Below are positions 1 to 52,495 of a stretch of DNA of 53,411 nt, piece after piece. The notes under the pieces are model-generated. The model was given only the letters and a program-made list of their open reading frames with translations, was not told the DNA's origin and did not search any database. Origin of the DNA: Candidatus Liberimonas magnetica (GTDB taxonomy: Bacteria; Elusimicrobiota; Endomicrobiia; Endomicrobiales; JAFGIL01); the NCBI GenBank assembly GCA_020523885.1, contig JAJAPY010000023.1:1-53411 (forward strand), in the 5' to 3' direction. Position 1 is the stretch's first letter. Every line of letters starts with the position of its first letter. Made by a program: the position numbers and the translations under genes.

Positions 1-3000
1 TTAAATGAATCTATGAACTCTATAAAACCTATCCGAAGCGCTATCCCTAAGGCACCCTTCCCCTCATTTGCCCACCGGTTTACCTTGCCAAGGTTTTTCG
101 GCAATATCGCTGCTTTGGGTTCTGCCGCGGCAGCGAGAGTTTGTTTTGCTGTTTGAACATCTAATTCAATGTTTCCTGAAATAAGGCCTATTTTTTTAAG
201 GAGTATCCGGGTATCAGCAACTGTTTGTGCGCAGGCATTTTGGATTATCGCATCAAGTTTTATATTTGCGCCAGACGGCAGTTTGTTTATATTGGTAACA
301 TTATGCTTTTTTAATAAGGCATTTAAGGCGTTCTGAAAATCCGTATTTTCATAAATAGCAGCTATATGCTCAGCACCAAAGGCTATCCTTATAGCTGCTT
401 CCCCGGGCCTTACTTCATAAGGATTGGCGGTGAGGATCTTTGCTGAAGCGATCGTTTTATTTTCTTCATCTAATAACGGTATTTTATCATTGATATCTTT
501 TTGGCAAAGGGAGCGAATCGTTTTTAGGCCTTTTAATGAAATAACTCCCGAGGCATTTTTGACCATTAAAGACACTATGGTGTTTTGGCCGTCTTCAATG
601 CTTGAAATGGGTAAATTTGCAAGGGATATGGTATTAGGTGCGATATTCTCAGCTTCGGTTTTTACGGCGTTTACAAGTTGTTGTGCTATTTTAGTTTGCA
701 GGGCCTTTGGTATTTTTGCATATCTTGACCAATGGAACAGGCCTGACAGCCATCTCATGGCCAATCCGGCATTCATTATTATAGGCATAGCCTGGCTGAT
801 GTTACTGAAACATGCTGGGAAATCAAATGAACTAAAATAATCCCTAAGGCCCTTTGGTATGTTTTTAGATTCTATTTTTGCCAGTTCTTCTGACACCCCT
901 TCCGGGAGCAGCACCGCTCCGCAGAAAGGGAAAGCGCCGAAAAACTTCGAGCCTGATATAAAAACAATAAAACCATTGTCCAAATATTTGCGGATCATTT
1001 CAGGAGAACTGGCTTCGCCGCGCATCTGCGCACAGTCAACAGCCACCAGGACCCTCGGTTTACCCGGCTTATTATATTTATTCATCAAATCCTTTGCAGT
1101 TTGCAGGGATACGGCATTGGCACCGCTTTTTGTGCTTGCCACTAGATGGATTATTACTTTGCTTTCTTTATTTTCTATAAGATTTTTATTTATATTTTCT
1201 TTTACTTGTTTGTCAACCGCCTCTTCCCCGAAATCAATCACTATCGGTTCTATCTGGCCTTCTTTAAAACCTTCTAAAAGTTCCCCTTGTTTAACTCCTT
1301 TTCTAAAGGGAGTTATACCTTTTGCGTCAAAATGTTTTGCCAGAGCAGCAAGCAGAGTGCCGCTGCCTACCTGAGCAGGTATTGAGACTTCGTTGTAAAT
1401 CTTCGCATCAGGGCCAAAGACCGCAAAAGCGCATAAGAGGACAAGAAATTCAACATCAGTCGCAGAACTTGCCGTCAATACCTTTATCTTATTGTTATCA
1501 AGCCCTAAAAGACTAAGTATTTCGCCTCTTATACTATCCAGCAATTTTACAAACTCTGAATTAACCGCATTTTCAATTTCCTTATCGCTTTTGCCTTCAA
1601 GGCCCAGGGCTACAGCTTTAGCTACGAATTTCTGGCGTTTGTTTTCTATGTCATTGAACTGCCTTTCCGTAGGGTTTGAACTTGTAGAATTGCTGACTTG
1701 TTTCACATCATTTGGTATTGGGCTATTTCCATATTCGTTTAATCCGGTATCCTGGTCTATAACGGACCTTGAATCTACGCCCGTAGTATGCAGGTATTCA
1801 AGCGGAACCGACAGTTTAAGCGAATATGCAGCTATTTGTTTTGCTTTTTGAACGATGTCTTTATTAAGGCCGGAAGTATCAATACCTGCCAATATTTTAT
1901 CAATTGACTGGGAATAAGACCGGCTGATTTCAGTTTCCCTGCCCTCCAGCCTGTTAACCTCTTTTTGGTACATATTTTCCAGTTCTTTTTCATATTGCTG
2001 CCTGATACTTTCAAGGAATTCCGCTCTTTCCGGATGGGCCTTTTTAAATTCATCCTTATCTTTTTTAGGCAATGTCGTATAATAAACAGCTTCGACTTGT
2101 GTGGCCAGGATTTCCAACGATAAGCTTACAGCAGAGCTTTTTATAGTTTCATCAGGCATCCCGGTTTCAGATAATATTTTACGCAAAACATCTATTTCGG
2201 CAGCGTGCCTCGCAGTTAATAGCTGCTCAGCACTTTGACTATCTGTGCTTGGGGTCAGGTCTTGCAACCTAACATCTTTGGTAGACACTTCCCCGTTTTC
2301 ATCAATAGTTGCTGCACCGAATTCCCTGACAGCCTTAATTAGCCCTGATGATTTTATGTAATTATAATCTACAACAATATGTGTCCTTATGTTGCCTGCT
2401 GCACGGCCTAAGAGGGCTATTATTATAATTGCCGAAAGGCCTGCCACAAAAGTAATCAGGTTCGCATTGAAACCCGATAAAATAAAACCTATCAATCCAG
2501 CGATTATTCCGACTGATAGACCCGTATAGGTTCCTACTTTCTGGGCTTTTACAACTAGTTTTGCCCCTTCTATCCCATTCTCATTCGTATGTGCGGCAAT
2601 AAATCCTTTACTGTTTGTAAACGAGAACCAGAACTCAATTAATGCAAGGCGTATCGCTATATCAAAGGCTGTCTTCTCTTTATTCGCCCAGCGGTTGACT
2701 TTATCTAAATTTTCAGGCAGTATCGCCGCTTCAGCTGCCATGCCAGCTTTAGTTCCTGTTTTCCTTTTATCCAAATCTTTTTTAATACCTTTAAGGATAC
2801 TTATCACGCCTTTCATATCACCAGGCCTACGATATTGTCTGTTTTCCCGAGACATATTTTCAATTATCCTGCCTAAATTATTATCTTGAATGTCATTATC
2901 CGATATTGCTTTTTTAATGGTCTTGCCAAAACTATAAACATCAGAATCACACATAAAAAAAGGGAGATCAAAGACAGGTGAAAAACCCCTGGTTATTGAT

Positions 3001-6000
3001 GGCGGCCTTCTGCCTATAAGGGTTGATGACCCAAGGTCTATTACCATAACTTCGCCTTTTTTGTTAAAAAGAATATTCCCGGGTTTAATATCATTATGCA
3101 GCCTTCCTATTAGATGTATCTCAAGAAAGATTCTGGCTGCTTTTATCAATATATCAATCTTTTGGGTAAAGGGAAGCGATTCCCATGACTTCGAATTAAT
3201 ATCTTGCCCATTTTCTATACCCTTAAGTTTCAGCCATACTTCCCCATTCCGGTTTACTCCTATTTTCAATAACTCTGGCAACATTCCCTTTTTCCCTAAA
3301 TCTGATAATTCTATAAGGTTTACTGCCTCTCTCAGTATGGCATTATTATATGAAGGCATCGATTCCGGTTTATCAACCTTATAAAAAACTCCGGGCTCTG
3401 AAGTATCCAGTAATATATTCGACAATCCTCCTTGCTCAATGACTTTGATCGCTCTGCCTGTATTAATTATTTCATCGGTAAAATATAAACTCAGAAGTTT
3501 ATCTTGTTTAATCTTTTTAATAAATATTTCTCTGATATTTAATCCAACAGATAATAAATCTTCTTCACTCATTATTAATTCTTTTACTTCAGGTAAGTAC
3601 CTAATATTCCTGCCTAATGCCACTAAATTGTTACCTACTCGAACAAGGCTTTCTTTGTCTTTTATCAAATTATATACCACTGGAAGCCCATATTTAAATA
3701 AACCATCTGCATTTTCCCCTGCAGAGTTATATAACTCTGCCCATGGTAAATAACCATAGTGGGCTGTAATCTCTCCAAACGGCTCTATCGCTTTCATTAT
3801 ATCCGGTTTGTTTTCAATAAGTTTCTTTGCCTTCCGCTCCCGCTCACTTTGAATCCTCTCTTTTACGGCAATACCTAATTTTAATGTCCTTTCCACATGT
3901 GGGGTCATACCTGGCGATGTAACATCTAATGTGGCCTGATCAACTTCATTATTTATTACGCTTTCCGGTCGTTCGCCTAATATTCCCCCAACCGGATTAA
4001 CCTGCAACCCAGGTTTATTTACTGATTCTTTTTCCCTTAATTTATTTTTTACTTCATCGTACGTATTAACTCCTTTTTTCAGTTTCAGAACGGCTTCTAT
4101 TGAAACTCTTAAGGACTCATCGATATCTTTTAAACTTGTACCAAATAATCCCAGGGCTAAAAATCCTTCATCATTACTGATTTTAAGTTTCTTTATCAAT
4201 TCATCAACCTGAATATTTTCTTTACTATTATTTGGGGAACGAGAAAACGTCTCAGCATTTTTTCTTCCATAACCCAGTGCAGTTCCCAGCCATATATGCC
4301 AATTTTTACCGAAACGGTCAGGGGAACAATATGAACTAACCAATTTATCTATCTGTTCATCTGTGATTACAGATTCAGTGTTAAGCCCCAAATCTTTCCT
4401 GATATTTTCAGAAATTAAATCAAGGTTCTCGTTTATAATTCTTCTTATAGCTTTATAATTGTAATAAAAGTAATATCTTAAACCACTTTCATCAATATAA
4501 TGTGACATATATGCTATATTTATTCCTGCTTTTTTCATTAATTCTATATTGCTTTTCTTTCCTAGCCAATCCTGCATTTCAGGAAAAGCTCCTTCAAAAA
4601 ACGCCAATGGTTTTTCTCCCCCAATCACAGCTTTAATATCAAGCTCATCAAAAACAAATGCATAATCAGGATCGTCCTTAAAAATTAGAGAAAAAGGCCT
4701 GAGAAACAAAGAATCCAATTCCTCCGGGCTGATATTTAAATTTAACAGTTCATTTACCCTGTCTTCATTTGTATTTGCACTATTCTCAGCTATTAATTTT
4801 TTGTAATGTTCAATTTCAAACTTTCCTATTCCGATGTACCACCGGCTGACAGGGTTAAATTTGGCATCTGCAACAATTAAATAGCCAGTTATGGCTATTA
4901 GCACGGGAACTGAAAACAGGCTTATTAGAATCGCCGCAGGACCGGAAACTATGCCTAAAAGGAACAGGCTTGCTGCAATACATGTACCTAAAAAGGCGGG
5001 TAAAAGCTGGGCGATTGTGTATGTTCGGGCTTCCCCTGCAGCTGGATGGGTCAAGTGATAAACCTCATGTCCCAGAGTGCCTGCAGCATAAAGGTATATA
5101 TATAAAAATGGCTTGGTTACTAAATTTGAATTTAAAGCTGTAAGGAATGAATATACACCGGGATTGACTTGGATGGTTTTCTGCTTTTGTGCTTGAAAGA
5201 AAACTCTGTCTTGTGTGAAAGCCTGGCTTACTTGTTTCTGCGGCATGGGAATAAACTTTATACCAGATACTTCAAAACTATCAGGCACTGGCCCTGCACG
5301 TACCGACTTAGCATTTGTCAGCCATTCAAGAAAAGCTACATGGCCAAAACCCATCGTCCCGGGTAAAAGTAACAGCAATAAATAGTTAATATCAACAGGC
5401 ATCTTAAGATACAGAGCCGCGGCGTATATGGAAAGAATTATGATAGAACCAAACAAAACCGATACGGCTGATGTAACCGCCATCCGGCCCAGTTTCATCG
5501 ATGCCTCTACTATCGGCACTTCAGCGTTTAATTCTGTCTGTGGAATGTGTTTCCCGTCATCATTGCCCGTTGTTGTCTCTACAACATCGGCTTCGGGCTG
5601 TAAACCTCCTGTCTCTTTTTTCTCAGTTCTTGGAGGAAGCTTAAGATCATCGAATTTCTTTTTTATTTCCTCCACATTTTCAGCAAGGAAAATACTGCTG
5701 TCTCCTCTCTCTGTATATTTCCCTGATAAGATAATATTTCCTATGGTTACAGAACCTTTAATTATTTTATGTTTTACATGCTTTTTTAAAGCATAACCAA
5801 ATTGAGTTCCGTCCCAGAAGAAAAATAATTTAGTTTTCGAATATCCTACCACATCTTTATTAGCCAAGGTGACAATTGTAGGCAAAACATCAATACCTCT
5901 TTTTTTAAGTTTATTGTATGCTTGAACTGCAAAATTATGTGAAAAACAGCAGGCTAAAACAATATTTACCTTAGATAAGTCAACCCCGCTTTTATATGCA

Positions 6001-9000
6001 TTTTCCAAGGTATCAACAAATGCCTCTACGCTTATCGCAGTTGCAGGAACATTTGATAAATACAGCTTGTTATCTTCAGAACCATGGCAATAAAACCATA
6101 TGAATTTATTTTCTTTTGGATTCTCTTTAAGAAAACCGCCTAATTCCTGAAGCACTTTTGCCGGCTCTGCTTCATGAGAATATTTTTTATCTATAGGTCT
6201 AACGCCTGCATTCATCAATAATGTATCTAATTCATTCCCATTAAACCTATTTTTATCTTCATCATTAAAGAAACCCAATACATAAGTTTTATTGTTGGCC
6301 ACTTCCATATTCCAGTTACTAATAACATTCCTTGAGATAATCTGGGATGCAAGTGCAATACTGTCATCGGTTATGGGGACATCAAACCTCCTAAGCATCC
6401 TTGCTGCAGACAAAGCCAATCCATACCGGACGACCGGGTCTAAAACAGCTTGCCTTGCATTAAATGGAACATTGTTTTTTGAGAATTCATTTTTAACGGT
6501 ATCATTGAATTTTTTATTTAGGAAAACTATTAAATCTTCAGCATCGTCAACCAGGGATATGTTCCTTTTAAGACTTTCAAGCTGTTTAATAAGCTGTTCC
6601 AAAGGTTTAGGAAGAACATCTATTCTGTCCTTACCAAGGGTTTTCTTCAGGACTGGTAGGGCTTTATAAAAGACATAAGCGACCTTTGTATCATCTACGT
6701 CTTTTTCATAATATTTGCCGAATAATTGTAGAGAATTGACCGCCTCATTCTTCGAAGGATATTTAATAGTACCAGATATTGTCCTAAGTATTTCGCCCAG
6801 ATACCAGCTTTCATCTTTATCTATTGAGGGGTCGGCTAGTCTTCGAGATACGGTGTCGATTAATATCTCTACTTCTTCTTCGGACAGTATTTCAACTACT
6901 CTGCCGATAAAACTGCTTAAATATTTTAAATTTAAAGTTGCATCCATCTTAGGTATTAGCGAAAGGCAGTGCCTGCAAATCTGCAATAATTCTTTTTCTT
7001 CTACTTTTACAATCCCGCTCACTGCTAAATTTGTAACCACAAGGGATGCATTTACCTGGGTTATATCATCAGGGTCATTTATCATCTTTAGAAGACGGCT
7101 GAATACGGGTTTAAGAATTCTAGGTTTAGGACCAAAATCTCTACCTGTCAAGGCAAGCGCCTTTACTGCAGATTGAGCTTTTATAGGATCATCTAAAAGC
7201 TGTATCAAGTAAGATACAGAATCTTTATCGCCCGGATAGCCTAAAACAAGAATACGGTTGAATTCACCTTCTTTTATCTGCGGAGAAGATTCAATCTTAT
7301 CTTTTATGGGTTGAGTGTATTTAGCCATATTCTTTTTATCTACTTTTTTAAGAATTTCTTTTAAAGCAAAAAATACCGATGTATTAAAATCCTCATTTTC
7401 AATCAAGGAAACTAAAACTTCGATTACCTTTACTTTTTCATCCGTATCTAACAATATGAAAGATAAATCATCTTCTTTAGCAATTTTACTAAAGACCACT
7501 CTTATCATTTCCTTACTGCATCTCTCAAGTTCTTTCTTTAAGAGTTCATTATCATTGGATTTATCGCCTAAGACAGCTAAGACAGCTCCTATCGCCTTTT
7601 TTCTAACTTGTATATTAAAATCCCCGGCTGCCGTTTCAATCAAGGGCCTCAATGTTTCAACATTACATATTCCGCCTAATGCTTCTATAGCAGATTCCCT
7701 CACCTTCGGGTCTGAATTGTTCTTTAGAATTTTTATTAGATATTCGGAAGTAGAAAGCTTATTAGGACTGTTTTTTAAGATTAAAACTATATCAGCGTCT
7801 AGAGAATGGTCATAATCTCCTTTTAGATATTCAGATAAAATATGTTCTTTTGATGCACCGCTTCCAAATTCCTTTTCTATAGCGTTTAATGCTAAGACAC
7901 TCCATTTCTTAACTTGTTTATTATCAATCCTTAGATATGAAAGATAAAGATCAACAGCCTGTTGTCTATCGATTTTACATGCTGTAACTGCTGCAGATCT
8001 TATTACATCTTCGTTAAGATTATTTACTAGTGTAAAACTTATTAACTGCTCTATTATACTTCTATCCCCTATCCTGCCTATCATAGATAAAAGGTCCATA
8101 GCCCAAGATTTCTTTAGAGCTATTAAGCTAATTTCCATAAAACAATTTAATAAATCTTTGGTAAACGCACTGGCAAGCTCAGGCGAGAGGAATGTCAGGT
8201 CTATATTGTCGATAAAAGCAGATAAGCCTTTTATAGCTTGTTCTCTTATTTCATAAGACTTGTTTTTAAGCAGGCCCGAATAAAAATCTAACAGTGCTCT
8301 ATTAGCGTCCCTGCTTTGGGACTTTACAGCCAGCGGAGTTAACCTTGATATTGAAGTTATACAAGGCAAATTTACTTCCCAATACCTGTTCTCAGATGCT
8401 TTCATAAGGGCATTTACAACTCTATAGTCATCTGAATAACCTAATGCCAAAACAGCCTGTTTACGGACATCTTTATTCGGGTCATTTAGAAGAATTAATA
8501 ATTGATCTACCAATTCTTTTGGCGTAAATTTATTTTTAACTAATCTTCGGCACAATCTAACTTTAGAATAAGGTTTGTTTCCTTTAAGCAGTTTCAATAT
8601 TTCACCTATATCAGATATATCAGAATCAGCCAAAGTCATCGGAAGCGCCTGTCCTTGCGGGGAAGCATTGTAAAAGTCATGGAAGTTACAGACCGCAAGG
8701 TAGTAGGCTAGTAATATTACAGGTATGTTCCACAGGGGATTGATTTGCAATAAAGATGTGCTGAGGATGGATATGAATGCAACCCAGAAAGTTGTTCTAA
8801 GAGCTGACTTTACACCTTCTTTGCCTGCCATGGCTATTGTTTCTTTTTCTTCAAGCGTATATTGTTCGTGCAAATTCGCAAACCAGCTCGGGTTTATTGC
8901 CAGCGGGATGTTTTCCCAGAAAGCAAACGGCGAAGGTGCTACTATTCTTTCAGCTATGTATTTTAAGGTCTTATGTTTTAAACTGCCGGCTTCCTCTCCA

Positions 9001-15000: not shown

Positions 15001-18000
15001 ATTTTGGTTAAGAAATGTTCTAACGCTCTATTTTGTATTGAACCGGCAACATTAATTGCAAGATTCTCGCTGAATTCGTGCCTCACACGGTGTGCAATTG
15101 TATTTTGCCTATCTTTATTATCAGCTGTTTTTATCTTTAAAGTTTTATTATCAAAATAAAGCTTATCCATGCTTGAAAACCCAAGCCCGTCTTCAGACGC
15201 TATATATTCTGCTTTTGCTTCAAGCACCTCTAAGCTTTCAAGTTTTATCTTGCCAGCCGGGCAGAGTGTATTATAATATGCAACATCTTCTGCAAATTTA
15301 GAGTTAAATTCTTGAATATCATCAACTACAGGTTGTTTAAACCCATTTTCTTTCATTATACTTTCTGCTTTTTCCAATATTTCCCGGGCAATTTCAACTG
15401 CTGTAATCTGTTCACTAATTCCATAATAAAAACCGTACGACCAAAAGATATTACCTACTATCATTTCAAGGATTTCCTTGTTAATACCCAGCCAATTTAT
15501 ACCATTTGTCAGTTCGGAATTCAGGGTCAGGTCTTTTAATTCAACACCATTGGCATGCACTTGCCCGTTTTCATCAGCTTCCTCTTCCGTTGCTGGCCGG
15601 ACAGAAGGAACAGTCCTTGCGAGCGCAAGCTGTTTTATTTCGGTGCTTACTGCAGAAAGCATGACAGCGGCATCTATTTTTCTTCCGTTAAAAATTAAGG
15701 GGTGTACTTTGGGATTGGTAGGTTCGTAACATGGGAATAACATTACATCATCACTGAATTCTGTACCGTGCAAAGATGCCAGCTCTGTCAAAATACGGGG
15801 AGGGCCCGTATGGCCTGTTTCTACAAGCCACTGAAGCATGGTTTGCTTTAGTTCCGGTATAGCAGCTGTTATCCAGTAATATATTTCAGGGCTTATGCTG
15901 TAAATATCCTCACATACCTTGAAAAATTGGGCGGGGTTGTTTTTTACGGCATTCAAACGATCAAGCATGTTCTGTATCGTTGCCCGGCCGTCTTTTTTCC
16001 AAGTAAATGCCTCTAATGTTATTGCCAGCACCATTGGAAGAGGCTCTTCATTTTCTTTGATTCTTAAAAGCCTCTCTTTGCCCCAAACATGCAGAAGTTT
16101 ATAACTTCTGCTATTTTGCTCATTGACAGAAACATCACTTGTCATAAGCTCAAGTGCTTTTCTAACTTTCTTATACTTTAAACCGTCCGCATAACCGATA
16201 TTAGACAAAAGCTCGGAATAATCTCTTAGGTACACGTTTTTGCCATAGTTTTTTACTTCTACTATGGCATTTTCAGTTAAAACATCTATTTCACATAAAT
16301 CTTCTACTTGAACCCCAACAGCCGAGACTTCGGTGAGGTATTGCCTCCTTAGAACATCAGCAACCCAAATTTCCCCACATAAGCCTACGGACAAATATGC
16401 GTTTTTATAGATTTTTCCCGCGACGGAACTGCCGCCGTCCAATTTACTGTACTTTTGTATTAATCTAAAAGTTTCTTCGCTTACAAGAGTTTGAATATAC
16501 GACTCTTCAACTCTTTCGACCTCTTTATTTGCTGCATTAATTATATATTGAACATCAACCCCATATTCAGGCAAAATTTCTCTTAAAAGATTTGGCACAT
16601 TTTCTTTTATATTATTTTGAATTACTAATTCTGATATTTTTTTAGCTATAACAGCTTCTTGCTCTTTTGTAAGATTGCCCGCAACTTTTGCAATAACAGC
16701 AGCAACGCTAATTCCCATATTCTTAGCGTTAATGGATTCATTAGATAAAGTTAAGTTATTAAAATAATTTCTTATTTTACCGGATAATCCAGCTGAAATA
16801 TCCGCAGGAATTGCTATCTTGTTGTTTTTCAGGAATGATATTATAAGTTCAGTAAGAATTTGGGCGAGAGATTTGTATGATTTTTTTATCTGGCGTGCAT
16901 CTGTTTTCGCGAAATCTATAAGCTGGTCAACTGCTTTTTGTTCTTCAGGTGTTTTAGCTATTGCTTTGTAACTATGCGCTTTTTGTACAATATCTGTCAT
17001 GCACTGGAGCCAGGCATCGCTTAAGTTATCGCGGGCTTTGTGGGTCTTTGCAAGAAAATACTCTAATGCCTTATTCTGGATTGAGCCGGCAACATTTATT
17101 GCCAGGTTATCGTTAAATTCGTGTCTTATACGGTTTGCAAGCGTTTTTGTATTATCCCTGTTATTGGACGTTTTTATATTTGCAGTTTTATTATCAAAAG
17201 CAAGGTTTTCCATACTGGTAAAACCAAGTCCAGATTCGGACGCTATATATCCGGCGTTTGACTCAACCACAGTTATGCTTTCAAGCTTTGTTTTACCAGC
17301 AGGGCACAAAGCGTTATAATACGCTATATCATCGGCAAGTTTTGAATCAAGTTTCCCGATATCTTCAACTTTATATGTAACAGGTTCTTTTAAACCTGCT
17401 TTCTCCATTATACTTACAGCTTCTTCCAGCACCCCTCGGGCAAGCGCAACTGCTGTTACCTGTGACGCCCGAACCGCAGGCATAAGGTCTAAAACTTGGC
17501 CTGCAACCGCTTCGATATAACGGCGTCTAATTTCTAAGGTATCTTTTATAAACACACCTGCTTTTTCCAATTCTTCATTGCTGTATTCCTTTGTAACGAA
17601 TAGTTTTACTGCAACTTCGTCAACAGGTTTCTTAATAACTTCTCCTATTTTAGGGTCAGCTTTTCTACCCATAGTCACAATGACGCTGGTCTCAAATTGT
17701 GTTTCTTTATTCAGGGCAAGTTTTGCTGCTTCTTCTCCGAATTTTTCACCGAGCAGCCTGTCATTTTCGTTCGGCGACAGGCCCCTGCCTGTGAAACCAT
17801 AATCAACGCCTTTTGTCATTTTTAATTTGTCTTTCATCTCCGGTGAAAATGTATTAAGTAATTCTTTTAATTCCGCATCATTTCCTGCAAGTTCTTCAGC
17901 ATGAATTACCGCTTCTTTTAAATAAAGATGTATGCCGCTCAACTGCGGATTTCCATGGTTATCAACTTTTACCGGTTTGGCAAATTTCGCCTTTAAGGAC

Positions 18001-21000
18001 GGCTCCAGGTCCAACAAACTATAAAACAGCGTTGCTCTGGCCTTTTGATTATTCTCGTTACAATCCTTGAAGATAAAGCCTTCAGACATTTCAACAGCAA
18101 GAAACCCCGTATCCCTGAATTTTGTTAAGGCCGCTATCAAGACATCCCTGAAAAATGCGGGTTTTTCAGGGATAAGTATCATTACCCCTTTTTCCGCCTT
18201 TCTTATTTCGTCTTTCTCTTTTTGCGAAAGGGTTTCTAATCCGGACGGTTCTACATACGCTGTGTGCAGCGCAAGGTGCCCCGAATTCCTTCCCATCTTT
18301 TCTTCTATAAAAATTATCCCCGCTTCAGCAGCTGACGCTGCCTGCTCATAGAACCTCTTTCTTGCATCTTCTATCATGGTGTTAGGCCCCAGCATCTGTG
18401 TACCAAAATCCATGTCAACCGACTTGGGTATCGCTATTACAGGAATTCCCTTGTCTTTTAGAAGGCCCCCAAGGATCCCCGCCTGTTTTGAGTGGTCATC
18501 GCCCCCTATCATTATATGCCCGTAGAACCGGCTGCTGTTTGCTACTATCTTGTCCGTGTTCTCCGGTTTCTTTTTGTCCACAACATTCGTGCGGGAGGAG
18601 CCGCCTACAAAACTTGCCCAATAAGGCAGTTTATCCGTATCTGAAAGCCTGACAAAATGGATTTTCCTGATGAATGCTCGTTTGTCCGAAGCAAGCCCTG
18701 AAAACCCGTTCTCCACAAAGGCAACCAAAACCCCTTTTACCGCACAGGTTTTCGTAACTGATGCAAGCGCTGCATTTAAACCCGCACAATCACCGCCGCT
18801 TAAACCCATAGCTATGGTTTGGCCTAATATTTTGTCCTGCAATTCTTCTAACCGTTTTACTGTCTCTTCAGGCATATCTTTTTTTTCAAGAAGCCTGGCA
18901 GTTCCGGCCAGAACAAATTCAAACTTTTCTATAGCTGCATCATGTTCTCCGTTTCTTAAGAGTGTTTCGCCTTGAGCTAAGGCTCCATTGAGTTCTTCTT
19001 CGCTGACCTCAGTTTTTGGCCTAGCGTCAAACAAATCAGACCGCAGGAATTTTCCCGGCTCTTCAGGCAGTTCTTTATAAGATAGTACCCGTCCTCCTTT
19101 TTCTATTTTTATCCCGGCAAGCCTAGCCCGTACAGCATTGTCTGATATGAAAGGAAGCCTCAGTTGTTTAATGACTATATCTGCCGGCAGTTCTTCATTC
19201 GCAGTTTCCAGCTCGATTCTACTTGCTTGATTTGCAAGATATTTCTTAGCTAAGCCGGGCATCAGGAACGCTATCAGCCATGCAAAACCATTGCTGAATG
19301 ATCCTTTCTTAAGAGGTATTGTCCTGTCTCTTTCCCAGAATACCCCTCCCTGCGCCAGTTCTTCATCGCTGTAAAGTTGAGTGAGTTCTGTCTCATCAGA
19401 AAATTGTATATCGTTTTTGTTCGACCTGGCATCAGCAAGAGCTTCTATCTTGCTTTTCGGCAAGGTGGCTAATACAGCTGCAAGATCTCCATCATATTCG
19501 GCAAGTTTTACTGCCTTTGCAAAGGCTAATTTAATAAGACGGGACATGTCAGGATTATCCAACATGCCTTTTATTTCATCATCTATTTCTGCCAGATGTC
19601 CAAAGAGCGTACCGGGTTCTTCAAAATCGCTGAAACGGTATCCGCCTGCTACCTGAATGTTTACATAACCATTATCTCTAAACCTTCTCAAACCTTCAAT
19701 AAGTACTTCCTTAAGAGGTGCCGGTTTTTCAGGTACAAGTATTATAACGCCGTTCTTTATCGCTTCAATGCTATGGCGCTCCCCCTCGCTGAGCCTGTCA
19801 AGGTTGGACGGATTAGTGCGTGCAGACAAGAACGCATAATTCCCATTTTCACCGCTGACTTCATTTACTGTTATCCTGACATGTGTTTTAGCAGTCATTC
19901 CTTGCGCATAGAACGATTTCTGGCCGGATTCGATAAGACCGAGCTCAGTATTCACTTTAGGCACCATAGCCGCTATCTTTGCATCAATTTTTCTTATTTT
20001 TTCAGCAGTTCCTTCTATAGCGTTGGTGTCAGGCTTCACTAAGTTCAGTAACTTTTGGCTGATTTCTGAACTATTTATAGCTTTTACAATTGCCACAAGA
20101 AGAGGAGTTTTTGCTTTCTTTAAGAGATTTTCTTCGTCTATTGCTTTATTTGCAGCTAGCTGCTGTAGTATTTCAGGAAAACCGCCAAGGACTTCCGCAG
20201 TTATATGTTGATTTTTTTCTAGGGCTTCCAAAACTTTTTTATTGCTCGCAATTGCAAATATTATCCCGTCGCTGCCGAATAGATCTTTTTTAGAGCCGTA
20301 TTCTGCAAAAACTTTTATTAACCCAAATATCAATTCTGTCGCAGCAAGCGGGTTGGTAAAGCTGTCAAAGGCTTCAATGATTTTCCTAAACTCGGCTGCG
20401 GCATATTCTGCATCCTCAATTATCGTTACCCGTTTTTCAATCTCACTTAGCGCGTCTGAAATATTAAATTCTTTATTTTCACCTGGTTTTAATTCAATTC
20501 TTTCTTCATTGATTTCAACAACTACTTTTTCTATTTTATTTTCTTTATCTTTACTAACTTCAATTATCTTTGCACCCATGGAACCTAACACTAAAGCCAG
20601 GGTTGAGTTCCCCGGTCCAGGTTTAGAGCTGTTAGTAAGCGAACCAAAACCCGTTGACTGCACACTTAAGTTTTGCGCCTGTTTTTTTGCCAATTCCGCA
20701 TATTCAAGGCTTGAAATTCTTGTATCCTGTGTTACATTAGGGGTTATAGCGATGTATGACATTTTCTTTTCTTGAAATATCTTTTTTAGGCCTTCTGTAT
20801 GAAATCCGCCGGTCACGATTACTATGATTTTTGAATTCTTCAATGTTTCGGAAATTTTTGTGCCCGCCGAAGGTTTGGTGCTTGTAGTTATATTTACTTC
20901 CTCAAAGTTCTGGTTTTGAGGCTCAAGTTCTTTGATATTCTTTAGGAAGCAGTCATTTCTTTCACAATTTGTTTTATAAAATTCATCAAGCAGTTTAAAA

Positions 21001-22268
21001 TCATCTGAGAGCTCCGTAAGCCTGCCACTGAGTGCATATCTGCCCCAAACTTGTTTAAACTTGCCGAACCTTTGTTTAAAGTATTCATAATCTTCCGCAG
21101 AAAGAGTATTCGATAAATAATCTTTAAAATATATATAAAAATCACACAGGAACGAAATATCAATCTCGCTTGTGTCTTTTGAAAAACCTATTCTTATTTC
21201 TTCAACTAACCGTTTCTCTTCTTCTATAAGTTTGATGGGATTTAAGGTCTGTCTTTTTTCTGCGTAATCAAGGAATTTGTAAAGGTCCGAGAACTGGTTT
21301 TTCGAGCTCCGGCCCGAGAATCCTGAACTTTTTGCTATCTTGCCAAGGTATAAATAAAGTTCGTCGGTTTTTGAAAAATTGTCAGTTTTTTGAATAATTG
21401 CGGCATAGGTGGAATAAGGAAGCTTAGATTTAATCAGTTGTATGAAATTCTGCATTTGGCTGGAGATTCTTTTGTACTTTAGTTCTTTGGCACATCTGCT
21501 TAATTCAAGGTATGCATTGATGTTAGGATAATTGTTTAAACTAAGGCTAAAAATATTGTTATAACTATTTGGATTTTCAGTGATTTTTTTAATATAGCCG
21601 CTCAATTTTTTATAATATTCATCAGTTGCTATGGCCCTTGCCTTATGTTTTTCTATTAATTTATTAAAGCTATTGTTATTTGAGCTGAAGTATTTAGCTT
21701 TCATAAACATAAGATCAAGGTCAAATTCTTTAATCTTGTCTTCATAGTATGCTTTTTTATTAAGGATTTTTCCCAGTCTTATTATATTTGATTTATGAAC
21801 AGCTTCGTCTTCTATGCCTTTTAATAAATTGGGCCTGTCCGAAAGGACTGAATAGTATTCACTGCCTGTCAGCCGCCCCTGGTTGACCAGCTTTTCTATG
21901 ATCTCTTTCTTGAGGTCTTTATCTTTTACATTGCAAATCCAGGAGGTGTTAATATCGCCATAACCGCCTTCCACATAGACGTTTTCTAATCCATATTTAG
22001 TATCTAACGCAGATAATATTTTTGAAATATTCCTCTGAACTTCTGAATGGCAATGCAGATCCTGAATGTTTACGATTATTTGCTTGCTGTCAAAGAATTT
22101 GCTGTCAGTAACCCTTCCGGAGGTTTGAGGGATAATAAAATCTTCCAGCACCGGCAAAGGTTGCTTGGATATAACCTTTACATCTAAAACTGCATGGAGG
22201 GCGTCGTTGAATACGAACGATACCAGGAAGCTTGTTAGAATAATTATTGAAACTAGTTTTTTCATCAT
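1..22268 (-). CDS. Giant multidomain exported protein, C-terminus beyond window
   Basis: One frame stays open from the ATG at 22268 to the window edge, at least 7,422 codons, with no stop. A second in-frame ATG follows at 22265; a weak GAAG Shine-Dalgarno lies 6 bases before the first. Residues 1-26 form a signal peptide (two Lys, a long hydrophobic run, cleavage likely after ALHA), so the chain should enter the secretory pathway. Modules in order, listed separately below: His-rich N-terminal domain, two phosphofructokinase-like units, a duplicated unknown module, PD-(D/E)XK-like segment, HAD-like, B12/radical SAM, HEAT arrays, caspase-like, HExxH peptidase, protein kinase, class-V aminotransferase-like. 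Hydrophobic segments recur near residues 4480-4530, 5590-5640, 5750-5800 and 6570-6625. Giant proteins are known from Omnitrophota. The overall function is unknown, and several modules have lost part of their signature residues, so they may be structural rather than catalytic. Confidence 0.9.
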   Translation of the reverse strand, partial: MMKKLVSIIILTSFLVSFVFNDALHAVLDVKVISKQPLPVLEDFIIPQTSGRVTDSKFFDSKQIIVNIQDLHCHSEVQRNISKILSALDTKYGLENVYVEGGYGDINTSWICNVKDKDLKKEIIEKLVNQGRLTGSEYYSVLSDRPNLLKGIEDEAVHKSNIIRLGKILNKKAYYEDKIKEFDLDLMFMKAKYFSSNNNSFNKLIEKHKARAIATDEYYKKLSGYIKKITENPNSYNNIFSLSLNNYPNINAYLELSRCAKELKYKRISSQMQNFIQLIKSKLPYSTYAAIIQKTDNFSKTDELYLYLGKIAKSSGFSGRSSKNQFSDLYKFLDYAEKRQTLNPIKLIEEEKRLVEEIRIGFSKDTSEIDISFLCDFYIYFKDYLSNTLSAEDYEYFKQRFGKFKQVWGRYALSGRLTELSDDFKLLDEFYKTNCERNDCFLKNIKELEPQNQNFEEVNITTSTKPSAGTKISETLKNSKIIVIVTGGFHTEGLKKIFQEKKMSYIAITPNVTQDTRISSLEYAELAKKQAQNLSVQSTGFGSLTNSSKPGPGNSTLALVLGSMGAKIIEVSKDKENKIEKVVVEINEERIELKPGENKEFNISDALSEIEKRVTIIEDAEYAAAEFRKIIEAFDSFTNPLAATELIFGLIKVFAEYGSKKDLFGSDGIIFAIASNKKVLEALEKNQHITAEVLGGFPEILQQLAANKAIDEENLLKKAKTPLLVAIVKAINSSEISQKLLNLVKPDTNAIEGTAEKIRKIDAKIAAMVPKVNTELGLIESGQKSFYAQGMTAKTHVRITVNEVSGENGNYAFLSARTNPSNLDRLSEGERHSIEAIKNGVIILVPEKPAPLKEVLIEGLRRFRDNGYVNIQVAGGYRFSDFEEPGTLFGHLAEIDDEIKGMLDNPDMSRLIKLAFAKAVKLAEYDGDLAAVLATLPKSKIEALADARSNKNDIQFSDETELTQLYSDEELAQGGVFWERDRTIPLKKGSFSNGFAWLIAFLMPGLAKKYLANQASRIELETANEELPADIVIKQLRLPFISDNAVRARLAGIKIEKGGRVLSYKELPEEPGKFLRSDLFDARPKTEVSEEELNGALAQGETLLRNGEHDAAIEKFEFVLAGTARLLEKKDMPEETVKRLEELQDKILGQTIAMGLSGGDCAGLNAALASVTKTCAVKGVLVAFVENGFSGLASDKRAFIRKIHFVRLSDTDKLPYWASFVGGSSRTNVVDKKKPENTDKIVANSSRFYGHIMIGGDDHSKQAGILGGLLKDKGIPVIAIPKSVDMDFGTQMLGPNTMIEDARKRFYEQAASAAEAGIIFIEEKMGRNSGHLALHTAYVEPSGLETLSQKEKDEIRKAEKGVMILIPEKPAFFRDVLIAALTKFRDTGFLAVEMSEGFIFKDCNENNQKARATLFYSLLDLEPSLKAKFAKPVKVDNHGNPQLSGIHLYLKEAVIHAEELAGNDAELKELLNTFSPEMKDKLKMTKGVDYGFTGRGLSPNENDRLLGEKFGEEAAKLALNKETQFETSVIVTMGRKADPKIGEVIKKPVDEVAVKLFVTKEYSNEELEKAGVFIKDTLEIRRRYIEAVAGQVLDLMPAVRASQVTAVALARGVLEEAVSIMEKAGLKEPVTYKVEDIGKLDSKLADDIAYYNALCPAGKTKLESITVVESNAGYIASESGLGFTSMENLAFDNKTANIKTSNNRDNTKTLANRIRHEFNDNLAINVAGSIQNKALEYFLAKTHKARDNLSDAWLQCMTDIVQKAHSYKAIAKTPEEQKAVDQLIDFAKTDARQIKKSYKSLAQILTELIISFLKNNKIAIPADISAGLSGKIRNYFNNLTLSNESINAKNMGISVAAVIAKVAGNLTKEQEAVIAKKISELVIQNNIKENVPNLLREILPEYGVDVQYIINAANKEVERVEESYIQTLVSEETFRLIQKYSKLDGGSSVAGKIYKNAYLSVGLCGEIWVADVLRRQYLTEVSAVGVQVEDLCEIDVLTENAIVEVKNYGKNVYLRDYSELLSNIGYADGLKYKKVRKALELMTSDVSVNEQNSRSYKLLHVWGKERLLRIKENEEPLPMVLAITLEAFTWKKDGRATIQNMLDRLNAVKNNPAQFFKVCEDIYSISPEIYYWITAAIPELKQTMLQWLVETGHTGPPRILTELASLHGTEFSDDVMLFPCYEPTNPKVHPLIFNGRKIDAAVMLSAVSTEIKQLALARTVPSVRPATEEEADENGQVHANGVELKDLTLNSELTNGINWLGINKEILEMIVGNIFWSYGFYYGISEQITAVEIAREILEKAESIMKENGFKQPVVDDIQEFNSKFAEDVAYYNTLCPAGKIKLESLEVLEAKAEYIASEDGLGFSSMDKLYFDNKTLKIKTADNKDRQNTIAHRVRHEFSENLAINVAGSIQNRALEHFLTKIHRARDNLGNTWHLCQIDIAEQPDEYRALVSPDSAPEELKAVERLIAFAKKDSAQIKEAYESLPAILNRLIHSYLTDKRILSFLHDDLNLIHNTIKNYISSKAELKSKKAVTNELIDEIFRLLPEVKNDNFSACLAEIYDTLASDYRFRSLGLRKGINAGRRVKALITILKSNPNALVEKIKQLSQSNTVSSSILEGLSKLQVYALDGIFHEIFQKDNLSSQEIIEILHTKMSGHPLLESLEDFIRSNQVTFTRIVPTQGIFHAKTFSIPVKLATVIKKWDVDALEKESVALEETDMVVINLGGMLLTPKTASYVGSKEWFKRLSRIKSHEMALRERMFLTGRLLRHDFYELADEKAILLLREIKKRNPDIKIYVATSNQEELRTDIETILSNLGLKVGSQIDGIIYAGNSGGFSRGVANFIGQEEAKAHRPLKIFYVDDSGENIARLMSQQKFTNFLTRSFFWIGKTYPAVVKDYAPYLANTKELIAKKQYGSAAENVINALEIIALDAEEGKPLGSDELDSAANQIYPFFSDLLMALSQALEDGNYSQASELALSIFDIIDSSSNVFKDKFFIFGNNLVRALEYSFKDNGNINILKILFNIMDHANTLIEHKYGILDKNKQREVIMKQIQLLHLIVEKIDQLRLSSRYLGYAVIPDGKGSWDIHKIGFAGKWIVDTRQIRPDDIDTGFKLRVLASFAESLKAETPHIDENGVPERSEKYRIVRIVKDFSKIKKDKVVYWSNLVCAVKEDDELSGGLVYYVTEEFATMGPEDQKKALQGVVLPVDKAYFDKETPVVETDKASVCFLTLNPTSAYGQMLLSQGLEEAGIKTETFRAVSQNTFSAHSGGKERIKKETGYSEDEILEKMAPYNVVGVSLTDSDFSIAADWIHQIRSKYPNKIIAVGGPAANKVPDSLLVNLDKQIGPWGVNIVFRGSDIDRFVYLISRLGKSATQRNICEKAAALSFLEQGVIVKGDYDHVMLVNGIDRVQSRYVALPRIDTWAECSYTMASYGCPKKCAFCNQPQGRKFLPVNMNDFVFHHIQRRKFLMAERERLIKSGDLSRDEDLFELRHRNGRLQMDVSLYDDNFLIGRTPNFTMLFLKLLKAINKMSDDEINNLTLDDIKSIGEAALKEKMEEGKIEYPSRPSVFHVAIKQTSIDSFLKGDVQVGKVREIDWKLIQAMLEAGVTEIANFGLDGLSDTVLWQNRKGYFWAEVNKVFGKLREMNIAFGYNIIFTNPRITKFQVVESLLNFAALIQKGYHSTNQNLHTWAEYGTQITNSVIMKDAPDWQWNESSFYNMGGHIRAGPWLIPKASEYAFFEPFPIYGENENFTVKYLLGEDYLTQDTSHKILAQFPQELSELQKSLTEDDPLYYTKMEIIRNITGITGAAFKTKEAIAKLVDTRTPLQKYISDNRERTFKSVLEQLVKEKRMEHLLDVFKNRYPESEITKRFVDLYQELSDQGEIDFENIQYKKYGLEVYYILLVCYYVVMFGEFFERILKMRLRDRDMAFPENKYNIHFNDKYSADTIIKILKTGTGYLKTLTCSNPYLEDSYPGENTTLVVISNKALNPIAKDGRLNIDWQGHWFSSVHVDEMLKNTDIAQIFLSEKIYKEVCAKTNDPDVLSRITVLNPSQNVVEQLEKCGYPVAAKEEFGDMVLFHILDLIMGKPVEKEENVHNNQTILEKIVNAIGILNMGIIPKLFMGFDPQELAAILNSSNPWLASMFLDDMFNYLINLDTEIDINFALEIYNSLNDKLKDEVVKALGISVKYSKSKTEKEEIEKFLIKIPGYEEKLRVKETLRNSILAAKDNSDELFTLLDGVKGSILDESDIEFLKGIILNSHDKKIVDWLLFVILNILKGSEYDRIELLKSLLASENLLVQTSALIQCKSRNIEPVLPMLKHPNPLIRIEALRTIENMEVHLIPYKKCIPILSEIALSDIDKSVRMEAAYVVKIMEEYVERDNERKFTYSYTATMPDTYGLVAGIANIFRKDKDKLKGQWWKDGEEAGSLKHKTLKYIAERIVAPSPFAFWENIPLAINPSWFANLHEQYTLEEKETIAMAGKEGVKSALRTTFWVAFISILSTSLLQINPLWNIPVILLAYYLAVCNFHDFYNASPQGQALPMTLADSDISDIGEILKLLKGNKPYSKVRLCRRLVKNKFTPKELVDQLLILLNDPNKDVRKQAVLALGYSDDYRVVNALMKASENRYWEVNLPCITSISRLTPLAVKSQSRDANRALLDFYSGLLKNKSYEIREQAIKGLSAFIDNIDLTFLSPELASAFTKDLLNCFMEISLIALKKSWAMDLLSMIGRIGDRSIIEQLISFTLVNNLNEDVIRSAAVTACKIDRQQAVDLYLSYLRIDNKQVKKWSVLALNAIEKEFGSGASKEHILSEYLKGDYDHSLDADIVLILKNSPNKLSTSEYLIKILKNNSDPKVRESAIEALGGICNVETLRPLIETAAGDFNIQVRKKAIGAVLAVLGDKSNDNELLKKELERCSKEMIRVVFSKIAKEDDLSFILLDTDEKVKVIEVLVSLIENEDFNTSVFFALKEILKKVDKKNMAKYTQPIKDKIESSPQIKEGEFNRILVLGYPGDKDSVSYLIQLLDDPIKAQSAVKALALTGRDFGPKPRILKPVFSRLLKMINDPDDITQVNASLVVTNLAVSGIVKVEEKELLQICRHCLSLIPKMDATLNLKYLSSFIGRVVEILSEEEVEILIDTVSRRLADPSIDKDESWYLGEILRTISGTIKYPSKNEAVNSLQLFGKYYEKDVDDTKVAYVFYKALPVLKKTLGKDRIDVLPKPLEQLIKQLESLKRNISLVDDAEDLIVFLNKKFNDTVKNEFSKNNVPFNARQAVLDPVVRYGLALSAARMLRRFDVPITDDSIALASQIISRNVISNWNMEVANNKTYVLGFFNDEDKNRFNGNELDTLLMNAGVRPIDKKYSHEAEPAKVLQELGGFLKENPKENKFIWFYCHGSEDNKLYLSNVPATAISVEAFVDTLENAYKSGVDLSKVNIVLACCFSHNFAVQAYNKLKKRGIDVLPTIVTLANKDVVGYSKTKLFFFWDGTQFGYALKKHVKHKIIKGSVTIGNIILSGKYTERGDSSIFLAENVEEIKKKFDDLKLPPRTEKKETGGLQPEADVVETTTGNDDGKHIPQTELNAEVPIVEASMKLGRMAVTSAVSVLFGSIIILSIYAAALYLKMPVDINYLLLLLLPGTMGFGHVAFLEWLTNAKSVRAGPVPDSFEVSGIKFIPMPQKQVSQAFTQDRVFFQAQKQKTIQVNPGVYSFLTALNSNLVTKPFLYIYLYAAGTLGHEVYHLTHPAAGEARTYTIAQLLPAFLGTCIAASLFLLGIVSGPAAILISLFSVPVLIAITGYLIVADAKFNPVSRWYIGIGKFEIEHYKKLIAENSANTNEDRVNELLNLNISPEELDSLFLRPFSLIFKDDPDYAFVFDELDIKAVIGGEKPLAFFEGAFPEMQDWLGKKSNIELMKKAGINIAYMSHYIDESGLRYYFYYNYKAIRRIINENLDLISENIRKDLGLNTESVITDEQIDKLVSSYCSPDRFGKNWHIWLGTALGYGRKNAETFSRSPNNSKENIQVDELIKKLKISNDEGFLALGLFGTSLKDIDESLRVSIEAVLKLKKGVNTYDEVKNKLREKESVNKPGLQVNPVGGILGERPESVINNEVDQATLDVTSPGMTPHVERTLKLGIAVKERIQSERERKAKKLIENKPDIMKAIEPFGEITAHYGYLPWAELYNSAGENADGLFKYGLPVVYNLIKDKESLVRVGNNLVALGRNIRYLPEVKELIMSEEDLLSVGLNIREIFIKKIKQDKLLSLYFTDEIINTGRAIKVIEQGGLSNILLDTSEPGVFYKVDKPESMPSYNNAILREAVNLIELSDLGKKGMLPELLKIGVNRNGEVWLKLKGIENGQDINSKSWESLPFTQKIDILIKAARIFLEIHLIGRLHNDIKPGNILFNKKGEVMVIDLGSSTLIGRRPPSITRGFSPVFDLPFFMCDSDVYSFGKTIKKAISDNDIQDNNLGRIIENMSRENRQYRRPGDMKGVISILKGIKKDLDKRKTGTKAGMAAEAAILPENLDKVNRWANKEKTAFDIAIRLALIEFWFSFTNSKGFIAAHTNENGIEGAKLVVKAQKVGTYTGLSVGIIAGLIGFILSGFNANLITFVAGLSAIIIIALLGRAAGNIRTHIVVDYNYIKSSGLIKAVREFGAATIDENGEVSTKDVRLQDLTPSTDSQSAEQLLTARHAAEIDVLRKILSETGMPDETIKSSAVSLSLEILATQVEAVYYTTLPKKDKDEFKKAHPERAEFLESIRQQYEKELENMYQKEVNRLEGRETEISRSYSQSIDKILAGIDTSGLNKDIVQKAKQIAAYSLKLSVPLEYLHTTGVDSRSVIDQDTGLNEYGNSPIPNDVKQVSNSTSSNPTERQFNDIENKRQKFVAKAVALGLEGKSDKEIENAVNSEFVKLLDSIRGEILSLLGLDNNKIKVLTASSATDVEFLVLLCAFAVFGPDAKIYNEVSIPAQVGSGTLLAALAKHFDAKGITPFRKGVKQGELLEGFKEGQIEPIVIDFGEEAVDKQVKENINKNLIENKESKVIIHLVASTKSGANAVSLQTAKDLMNKYNKPGKPRVLVAVDCAQMRGEASSPEMIRKYLDNGFIVFISGSKFFGAFPFCGAVLLPEGVSEELAKIESKNIPKGLRDYFSSFDFPACFSNISQAMPIIMNAGLAMRWLSGLFHWSRYAKIPKALQTKIAQQLVNAVKTEAENIAPNTISLANLPISSIEDGQNTIVSLMVKNASGVISLKGLKTIRSLCQKDINDKIPLLDEENKTIASAKILTANPYEVRPGEAAIRIAFGAEHIAAIYENTDFQNALNALLKKHNVTNINKLPSGANIKLDAIIQNACAQTVADTRILLKKIGLISGNIELDVQTAKQTLAAAAEPKAAILPKNLGKVNRWANEGKGALGIALRIGFIEFIDSF
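150..1530 (-). other. Giant protein: class-V aminotransferase-like PLP domain
   Basis: Residues about 6913-7373. VLVAVDCAQMRGEA gives the pyridine-nitrogen-binding Asp7078, and ISGSKFFGAFPFCG gives the Schiff-base candidate Lys7108, followed by a Gly-rich turn. This is the fold-type I arrangement of class-V aminotransferases, cysteine desulfurases and lyases. A stretch starting AAILP then follows and repeats a linker seen at about 2600-2740, after which the frame leaves the window. Confidence 0.65.
2890..3560 (-). other. Giant protein: protein kinase-like domain
   Basis: Residues about 6237-6460. The catalytic loop is HNDIKPGN (His6391, Asp6393, Lys6395, Asn6398), the metal-binding motif is DLG at Asp6412 instead of DFG, and DVYSFG in the helix-F region is typical of Hanks-type kinases. 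A lysine in VFYKVDKPE could be the ATP-binding Lys. The key residues are present, so kinase activity is plausible. The location after a signal peptide argues for either an unusual topology or a non-ATP role. Confidence 0.7.
4790..5510 (-). other. Giant protein: membrane HExxH metallopeptidase-like domain
   Basis: Residues about 5587-5827. A pair of membrane segments (about 5589-5643) precedes GTLGHEVYHLTHP, with the zinc motif His5734-Glu-Val-Tyr-His5738; Glu near 5748 in GEARTY could be the third ligand. Another pair of membrane segments follows (about 5750-5797). The layout resembles M48-type membrane peptidases. Confidence 0.6.
5690..6310 (-). other. Giant protein: caspase-like (clan CD) domain
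   Basis: Residues about 5320-5525. FIWFYCHGSEDN supplies a His-Gly dyad with His5395, and IVLACCFSHN supplies Cys5440/Cys5441, where Cys5441-Phe-Ser matches the C(Y/F)SG motif at the end of a hydrophobic strand. His to Cys spacing of about 46 residues fits caspase/CHAT/gingipain-like peptidases. Both catalytic residues look intact, so it could be an active cysteine protease, possibly acting on this chain. Confidence 0.6.
6650..9480 (-). other. Giant protein: HEAT-repeat arrays with an internal membrane pair
   Basis: Residues about 4263-5206. Repeating helix pairs with the pattern xxDxxxxVRxxAxxAL, for example DPNKDVRKQAVLALG and NPLIRIEALRTIE, indicate HEAT/PBS-lyase-type repeats that build a curved scaffold for protein binding. 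Two hydrophobic segments near residues 4480-4530 split the array into a short first block (9130-9480) and a long second block (6650-8620). Confidence 0.75.
11240..12630 (-). other. Giant protein: B12-binding-like plus radical SAM domains
   Basis: Residues about 3213-3370 form a Rossmann-like B12-binding-type unit: VCFLTLNPTSAYG, VVGVSLTDSDF, KIIAVGGPAAN. It is followed by a radical SAM barrel at about 3410-3675. The 4Fe-4S motif is visible as YGCPKKCAFC, with Cys3435, Cys3439 and Cys3442 in the canonical CxxxCxxC spacing, and DVSLYDDNFL and ITEIANFGLDGLSD-like strands follow. This is the layout of B12-dependent radical SAM enzymes (methyltransferases and cyclases). The Rossmann unit lacks an obvious DxHxxG cobalamin-ligating motif. 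Confidence 0.75.
13674..14171 (-). other. Giant protein: HAD-like domain
   Basis: Residues about 2700-2865. IKIYVATSN resembles HAD motif II (hydrophobic strand ending in Ser/Thr) and IFYVDDSGENI resembles motif IV (DD). The expected nucleophile motif DxDxT is replaced by VVINLGGMLLT, which lacks the nucleophilic Asp. If this is a HAD fold it is probably not a standard phosphatase. Confidence 0.5.
14745..15414 (-). other. Giant protein: duplicated unknown module, copy 2
   Basis: Near residues 2286-2508, about 2.05 kb further along the gene than copy 1. It repeats the landmarks AEDVAYYNTLCPAGK, GLGFSSM, RHEFSENLAINVAGS and LIAFAK. The segment between the copies (with the PD-(D/E)XK-like motif) is not duplicated in the visible sequence, so the duplicated unit is the module plus, at most, short flanks. 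Function unknown. Confidence 0.75.
16220..16330 (-). other. Giant protein: PD-(D/E)XK-like segment
   Basis: Residues about 1980-2017 contain EIDVLTENAIVEVKNYG: Asp1995, then Glu2004-Val-Lys2006 on the next predicted strand. This Asp-x8-Glu-x-Lys arrangement is the metal-binding signature of the PD-(D/E)XK nuclease fold. It is a short motif and can occur by chance, and no further nuclease feature is obvious nearby. Confidence 0.4.
16800..17466 (-). other. Giant protein: duplicated unknown module, copy 1
   Basis: About 222 residues near 1601-1823. Shared landmarks with copy 2 are ADDIAYYNALCPAGK, a GLGF(T/S)SM block, RHEFNDNLAINVAGS and a C-terminal LIDFAK helix. More than half of the residues appear identical by eye, and base-level similarity persists, so the duplication is fairly recent or under strong constraint. 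I do not recognise the family; it is predicted mostly helical. Confidence 0.75.
17709..18836 (-). other. Giant protein: second phosphofructokinase-like domain
   Basis: Residues about 1145-1520. Order of motifs: LSGGDCAGLN near 1155-1164, IGGDD with the two Asp at 1257-1258, PKSVDMD at 1281-1287, and MGRNSGHLA near 1325. These correspond to the phosphofructokinase family's glycine-rich loop, GGD(G/D) phosphate-donor motif, PKTxDxD active-site motif and MGRxxG motif. Asp-Asp after Gly-Gly is typical of pyrophosphate-dependent enzymes, whereas ATP enzymes have Gly-Ser. The usual Asn of PKTIDND is Met here. Activity is possible but unproven, and an exported phosphofructokinase would be unexpected. 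Confidence 0.7.
19600..19946 (-). other. Giant protein: first phosphofructokinase-like unit, degenerate
   Basis: Residues about 775-890. This segment aligns by eye with the C-terminal half of the second phosphofructokinase-like unit: both have a block ending in GVIILVPEKPA or GVMILIPEKPA, then a short helix and RFRD(N/T)G. The first unit lacks the GGDD and PK(S/T)xDxD nucleotide/substrate motifs in recognisable form, so it looks like a decayed duplicate. Catalysis is not expected from this copy. Confidence 0.6.
20769..22121 (-). other. Giant protein: N-terminal His-rich domain
   Basis: About residues 50-500. It carries DLHCH near residue 73 and GGFH near residue 488, separated by a long helical stretch rich in Lys, Glu, Tyr and Leu. 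The spacing and the glycine-glycine-phenylalanine-histidine motif recall ChaN/TraB-type folds (haem-binding or protease-like proteins with two distant His motifs). I cannot establish homology by eye, and the domain may instead be specific to this lineage. Confidence 0.4.
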
Positions 22269-22839: not shown

Positions 22840-22845
22840 ATCAAT

Positions 22846-52326: not shown

Positions 52327-52495
52327 TTTTTTTACACCAATGAATCAAATATAGTTGAAAAAGCCGTATAAATATTGAAAAAAAAATCAAAAGAAAGCTT
52401 TATAAATAAATTTTCTTTCTTATTACGCTAAAACCTATCAAATTTTAAGCCATTCTTACAGATTTTACCAAGCCAAAATTTTATTTATAAATCAA

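Follow-up and report, generated by a model that had tools for sequence, protein, structure and literature searches.

A 53,411-nucleotide stretch of DNA from Candidatus Liberimonas magnetica (contig JAJAPY010000023.1, hereafter the window) was found to carry a giant gene belonging to a family of at least 18 paralogues in this genome, whose members were marked by a constant N-terminal head and, in most cases, by a short C-terminal tail and a terminator-like RNA hairpin in the leader, whereas the middles of the proteins (the payloads) were largely unrelated. The open frame on the minus strand (window:3-22268) started with the ATG at 22268 and ran without a stop to base 3 of the contig, giving 7,422 codons, which bore out the single polypeptide of more than 7,400 residues proposed in a preliminary description of the sequence. 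The probability of such a stop-free frame at the given composition was about 10^-244. The GC content by codon position showed the same pattern in every 3-kb block of the frame, and therefore no frame change was visible. The window comprised the entire contig C23 (G000:C23) of a 3.39-Mb genome of 29 contigs with a completeness of 97.8%, so the gene was truncated by the end of the assembly contig and not by the edge of the window.

The N-terminal ~540 residues, consisting of a signal peptide and a head domain, formed the common front end of the family. The signal peptide (22188..22268, minus strand; residues 1-27), which the preliminary description had also recognized, was conserved in the 17 other giants of the genome with the motif KK..A..TL.CF..SFV..QPL.A. 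The head domain (20664..22151, minus strand; residues 40-535) contained the motifs IQDxHC.PEVQ.NI, EG, TG.EYY, GGFH, and TPNVT, and the window copy was assigned to the family by its signal peptide and its IQDxH, EG, and GGFH motifs. The aligned heads of the genome were 26-60% identical to the window copy, with Q69, H72, E76, E100, G101, E137, R164, and GGFH invariant. None of 28 heads (18 + 10) had a Pfam match to ChaN, TraB, or EreA, Pfam contained no family for the domain, and no match was found among the sequences of solved structures. The AlphaFold (AF2) model of the head was fairly confident (pLDDT 80.6) and had no significant match to a solved structure; its weak Foldseek matches included EreC (probability 0.30, E 0.2) and the EreA-like 2rad. 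The head motifs QDxH...Q, EG, and GGFH resemble the GExH, E, and GxxH motifs of the EreA/ChaN/TraB (TIKI) superfamily. The heads differed in lacking a Pfam match to those families and a significant fold match, and in containing a long helical insertion. Membership in this superfamily is not claimed.

With the first 556 residues as the query, 18 open reading frames (ORFs) with the head were found in the genome, with lengths of 2,364-12,635 aa and a sum of 122,242 aa (10.8% of the genome). Both the count and the proportion are lower bounds, because the copies on contigs C10, C14, and C29 and the window copy ran off contig ends. The enzyme mixture, for which the preliminary description had known no described counterpart, was indeed particular to the window copy, but the protein itself was not a one-off, being one of the 18. 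Two other giants of 6,155 and 12,025 aa lay convergently on contig C12 (C12:32103-50567, plus strand, and C12:86712-50638, minus strand), with their ends ~70 bp apart. In a collection of named genomes, all 80 relatives listed for the N-terminal domain came from Elusimicrobiota (Endomicrobium, Ruminimicrobiellum, Proruminimicrobium, Endomicrobiales, and other Elusimicrobia metagenome-assembled genomes), mostly from Endomicrobia, so the host does not belong to Omnitrophota. The head was found at E<=1e-10 in 43 of 150 sampled genomes of the phylum, and almost every member of the order whose genome measured 1.8 Mb or more had at least five copies (exception G034). The small-genome genus g7 mostly had no head copies, and none was found in a single-contig genome of 1.6 Mb. 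In some g7 relatives (e.g. G027 and G031), pieces of the head interrupted by stop codons persisted, a pattern suggestive of decay of the family in this genus. In five genomes outside the class, the head profile gave 22-45 matches per genome, a count that includes some heads split over several matches, and the frames reached 13,472 aa.

At the other end of the proteins, the giants of the genome with a stop codon ended in KSAA, QSAA, QAAG, EVAG, VAA, SAS, and similar residues. The tail pattern [IV][KR][AS][IM]LxA[AG]-stop was matched by 39 of the 49 distinct C-termini from Endomicrobia (this genome and relatives), with the consensus [IV][KR][AS][IM]L[SAG]A[AG]. The pattern also occurred in 2 of 334 ordinary ORFs of 200-999 aa from the same loci, and in both cases the ORF was the 5'-open terminal part of a longer frame, in one case of a known giant; a Fisher test of 39/49 against 0/332 gave p ~3e-44, with relatedness ignored. 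A related tail, [ASQ][AQ]-stop, was present in all 20 giants sampled outside the class. Because the middles of the giants are largely unrelated, the tail represents a conserved element in its own right. Its function as an SsrA-like degron was not supported, since the tmRNA tag of the genome ends in LPLAA and the residue of the giants at position -3 was S, A, or G and almost never L. The tag itself, as read by ARAGORN, was unusually long (DKLHLPFGSLGIQNMAPLSLPLAA; L191:1501-1891). A signal for a C-terminal-processing protease was also rejected, as about one S41 protease was found per genome with or without giants.

The terminator-like hairpin of the window (22316..22345, minus strand) was located ~48 nt before the ATG of the giant and consisted of a GC-rich stem of 13 bp followed by a T-tract, with a folding energy of -21 kcal/mol and a z of -5.4, so the window copy was counted among the giants with a leader hairpin. 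The hairpins of the paralogues differed in sequence and had the same form. A hairpin was present within ~110 nt of the start in 40 of 66 named relatives compared with 0 of 122 control windows taken inside genes, which represent intergenic DNA imperfectly. The leader gave no Rfam match apart from tRNAs. An RfaH/LoaP-type NusG paralogue was considered for read-through of the hairpin and rejected, as just one NusG was found per genome. In the genome of the window and its nearest relative, a small ORF with two membrane helices lay 5' of the hairpin. The ORF at 22294..22965 (minus strand; 223 aa as listed, true start uncertain), which has hydrophobic segments at both its N- and C-termini, probably belongs to this small membrane ORF type, which precedes most giants of the genome and, in three paralogues (C3_200970, C4_177985, and C29_10417), formed one continuous frame with the giant. 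As a family-wide partner, the small upstream LPRG ORF was rejected because it was confined to near relatives, a motif search detecting it in 6 of 66 with one doubtful case.

Behind the head, the payload of the window copy contained a series of modules, all on the minus strand. A degenerate duplicate of the C-terminal half of phosphofructokinase (PFK; 19461..19937, residues 778-936) preceded the PFK module itself (17679..18851, residues 1140-1530; Pfam E=6.8e-27), which retained GGDxAGLN, IGGD, PKSxDxD, MGR, and PE, while the H of its GHIQRGG segment was replaced. This module is unlikely to be the glycolytic enzyme of the genome, because three stand-alone PFK genes were found elsewhere in it. 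An internal repeat followed in two copies with 57% identity (16815..17468, residues 1601-1818, and 14763..15416, residues 2285-2502), and between them lay a PD-(D/E)xK-nuclease-like motif, EIDVLTENAIVEVK (16089..16406, residues 1955-2060), identified by motif only and with a weak Cas4a2 match. In the HAD-phosphatase-like region (13689..14126, residues 2715-2860), which was read from the sequence and had no profile match, the DxD nucleophile was replaced (INLGG), and the region is probably catalytically dead. The radical-SAM module (11229..12461, residues 3270-3680), with a weak B12-binding match before it, kept the CxxxCxxC motif (Pfam 4e-6; 27.5 bits, slightly under the curated cut-off of 29.5) and had no match among the sequences of solved structures. 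A HEAT-repeat solenoid (7389..9341, residues 4310-4960; Pfam 2e-26) was followed by a caspase-like region (CHG ... LACC; 5769..6401, residues 5290-5500) with weak structural support and no Pfam match; its single-sequence model had a low pLDDT of 46, and the best Foldseek matches included caspases-1/-2/-11 (probability 0.92-0.98, E ~0.01-0.04). A multi-helix membrane region with HEVYH (HExxH; 4854..5471, residues 5600-5805) was recognized by motif only. The protein-kinase module (HNDIKPGN, DLG; 2829..3455, residues 6272-6480; Pfam 1.6e-5) kept HxDxxxxN and DxG, was paralogous to residues 3132-3367 of C3_200970, and matched PknA in the PDB (3.4e-6), with a Pfam score of 24.9 bits, under the curated cut-off of 31.7. 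The PLP-enzyme-like region (DCAQMRG ... SGSKFFGAFPFCG; 279..1481, residues 6930-7330) was again defined by motif only, with no match in Pfam, NCBIfam, or PDB sequences.

NCBIfam agreed with the Pfam module calls, and PDB sequence searches backed the PFK and the kinase. Judged from the sequences, the PFK, radical-SAM, and kinase modules represent genuine enzyme folds, some of them with intact catalytic motifs. The enzyme-like modules listed in the preliminary description were therefore confirmed in part: profile searches found three of the named folds (PFK, radical SAM, and kinase) rather than none, whereas the caspase-like fold was weakly supported, and the HExxH and PLP-enzyme assignments remained motifs for which Pfam and NCBIfam gave no profile match. 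A defence-system reading was rejected, as PADLOC gave only generic kinase and HEAT matches plus faint others.

A linker module with hydrophobic membrane-helix segments (LPxN..RWA..GK) occurred in the window protein at 2229..2765 (residues 6502-6680) and, in a second copy cut by the contig end, at 3..137 (residues 7378-7422), both on the minus strand, and was also present in giants of contigs C12, C17, C1, and C13. For the missing 3' end, whose retrieval the preliminary description had advised, a candidate fragment was present on contig C13, which begins with a 931-aa open frame holding a further copy of this terminal linker module. The fragment was not joined to the window giant and the link is unproven, because the 111-bp match between the contigs was only 94% identical and not an exact overlap. 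The fragment ended in a dispersed repeat and without the tail. The repeat, SLRGAKRRGNLQ...ASPLARND, formed the C-terminal ~45-50 residues of this giant fragment (C13; L003:2-2797, 3445-3654) and was also found at more than 12 other places of the genome, mostly in short frames.

A comparison of related giants separated the constant from the exchanged parts. Among the paralogues within the genome, the common parts were residues ~1-730 and a few modules, and little aligned past residue 730. Only one faint match to the radical-SAM region was found among 14 sister genomes (13 of the 14 lacked a relative), and no homologue of the PLP-like region was found in 95 other genomes of the class. Scans of ~30,000 aa of three other giants revealed different modules, including PPDK, PEP-utiliser, lipase, glycosyltransferase, M20, PRTase, and GNAT, as well as PLD, phospholipase C, GH2, TPR, and cNMP-binding domains. 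In contrast to this scant sharing, an orthologous pair of giants (6,732 and 6,744 aa), each from a different species of the same genus, was 78% identical with an omega of 0.17, and omega was 0.08-0.30 in every 400-codon block of the pair. The entire chain is thus under constraint at the protein level. Together, these results indicated constant ends and exchanged middles, with the middle then maintained, as measured for one pair.

Most giants of the genome began with a hydrophobic, signal-peptide-like segment, paired membrane segments were found in many of them, including those of the recurring linker module that occurs twice in the window protein, and cysteine made up 0.43% of the payloads compared with 0.78% of ordinary proteins. 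These features fit an exported chain tethered to the envelope, a localisation predicted from the sequences. We consider the chances about even that the family consists of very large exported proteins of many domains, in which the ends are constant and serve targeting while the payloads can be exchanged, probably for contact with other cells or extracellular processing. The chain would be threaded across the inner membrane with the N-terminus first, and the paired helices would tether it to the envelope at intervals, with the head and tail as putative signals recognized during export, anchoring, or processing. The payload would be the working part, turned over quickly by module capture and duplication, and such fast turnover would suit a role in contacts with other cells, be they prey, competitors, or protist hosts, or in processing material of such cells outside the bacterium. 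Through premature termination, the hairpin probably restricts the expression of these costly genes to a low level or to certain conditions. A bolder version is possible, although we would put it forward only tentatively: the head and tail could be the ends of a dedicated, hitherto undescribed, phylum-wide platform for the export and handling of giant proteins, which would export any payload inserted between them, stitch it into the envelope, or process it, and the leader terminator could gate its expression. Several observations weigh against the main reading. The PFK, radical-SAM, and PPDK enzymes depend on cofactors of the cytosol, and their activity outside the cell would be difficult to account for, except by delivery into another cell or a role as a binding scaffold. 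The strict tail was missing in 3 of the 14 C-termini of this genome and 7 of the 35 from relatives, and that of the window copy was beyond the contig end. Linkage of a secretion gene to the giants was not found either, although no systematic search was made.

Part of this evidence would also suit a surface adhesin or a predation “coat”, as proposed for the Omnitrophota giants such as that of Velamenicoccus archaeovorus, in which the main task of the modules would be to bind or degrade the polymers of cells attached to the bacterium. The giants look exported and have membrane helices, other copies carried lipase, GH2, PLD, and phospholipase C domains, and a 39,678-aa Omnitrophota giant has 42 predicted membrane helices and peptides that rise 3-fold when the cells are attached to larger cells (PMC10066038). 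However, no discoidin, laminin-G, or dockerin domains were found in the window giant or in the ~30,000 aa of the three other giants, and many modules had folds of cytosolic metabolism (PFK, PPDK, PRTase, radical SAM, and kinase), which makes this explanation rather unlikely in our view. The same enzymes would be less puzzling if the whole chain, or fragments released from it by protease-like modules within it, entered a recipient cell that supplies ATP, S-adenosylmethionine (SAM), and pyridoxal phosphate (PLP). Such an injected polyprotein effector would agree with the motifs kept in the cofactor-dependent modules, the weak caspase-like region, and the diversification of payloads behind constant ends; yet no delivery apparatus was identified, and the giants were mostly missing from the presumably intracellular genus g7, where host-directed effectors would be expected, so we regard it as doubtful. 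That the ORFs are non-functional, having grown by the neutral capture of modules whose enzymes are decayed, or are assembly chimeras, is highly improbable, and for the family as a whole it is strongly disfavoured. The degenerate duplicates (the PFK half and the HAD-like region without its nucleophile), the contig ends inside several giants, and the dispersed repeats could be read in this way, but the low omega along the entire orthologous pair, the shared head, tail, and hairpin, and the same plan in independently assembled genomes argue against it.

Among the neighbouring genes of the window, a tRNA-Arg gene (23092-23165, minus strand) was located directly upstream of the small ORF and the giant on the same strand, and four clustered tRNA genes (52084-53164, plus strand) lay near the opposite end of the contig. 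The window also encoded another HEAT-repeat protein, possibly with a signal peptide (27359-28354, minus strand; HEAT_2 3e-49), which resembled the HEAT solenoid of the giant. A 369-aa ORF at 50705-51814 (plus strand), starting with VIEKKTIFVLGAGASMPYGYPSG, resembled SIR2-like NAD-binding N-termini in our own reading and had no Pfam match at 1e-3.

Giant genes with ORFs longer than 20 kb are common in Omnitrophota (PMC10066038), and those proteins, including that of Velamenicoccus archaeovorus, are similar to the giants described here in their very long frames, several membrane helices, few annotated domains, and lineage-wide frequency. The Omnitrophota belong to another phylum, whereas the giants of Elusimicrobiota form one paralogous family defined by head, tail, and leader hairpin, a statement made for the latter alone. 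Enrichment in proteins longer than 5,000 aa has already been reported for Elusimicrobiota (PMC11573180), and giant genes are common in Elusimicrobia according to PMC12057145, which cites a 2023 preprint of West-Roberts. The common head, tail, hairpin, and payload turnover are not described in the texts consulted, and our literature search found no description of any of the four. Giant genes in Elusimicrobia are thus known, while the head family, the tail, and the leader hairpin appear to be undescribed. Polymorphic toxin systems are similar in having a constant N-terminal targeting part with a variable payload behind it, but the giants are much longer, contain many modules per protein, and have a constant C-terminal tail; no immunity gene was identified, although no systematic search was made. 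It is unusual that about a tenth of a bacterial genome is spent on giants with shared ends and unrelated middles. Through the shared ends, the role of bacterial giant proteins can be broken down into elements that lend themselves to testing, namely the small head, the ~10-residue tail, and the hairpin, and the head and tail motifs provide a sequence handle by which such genes can be found and counted in other genomes.
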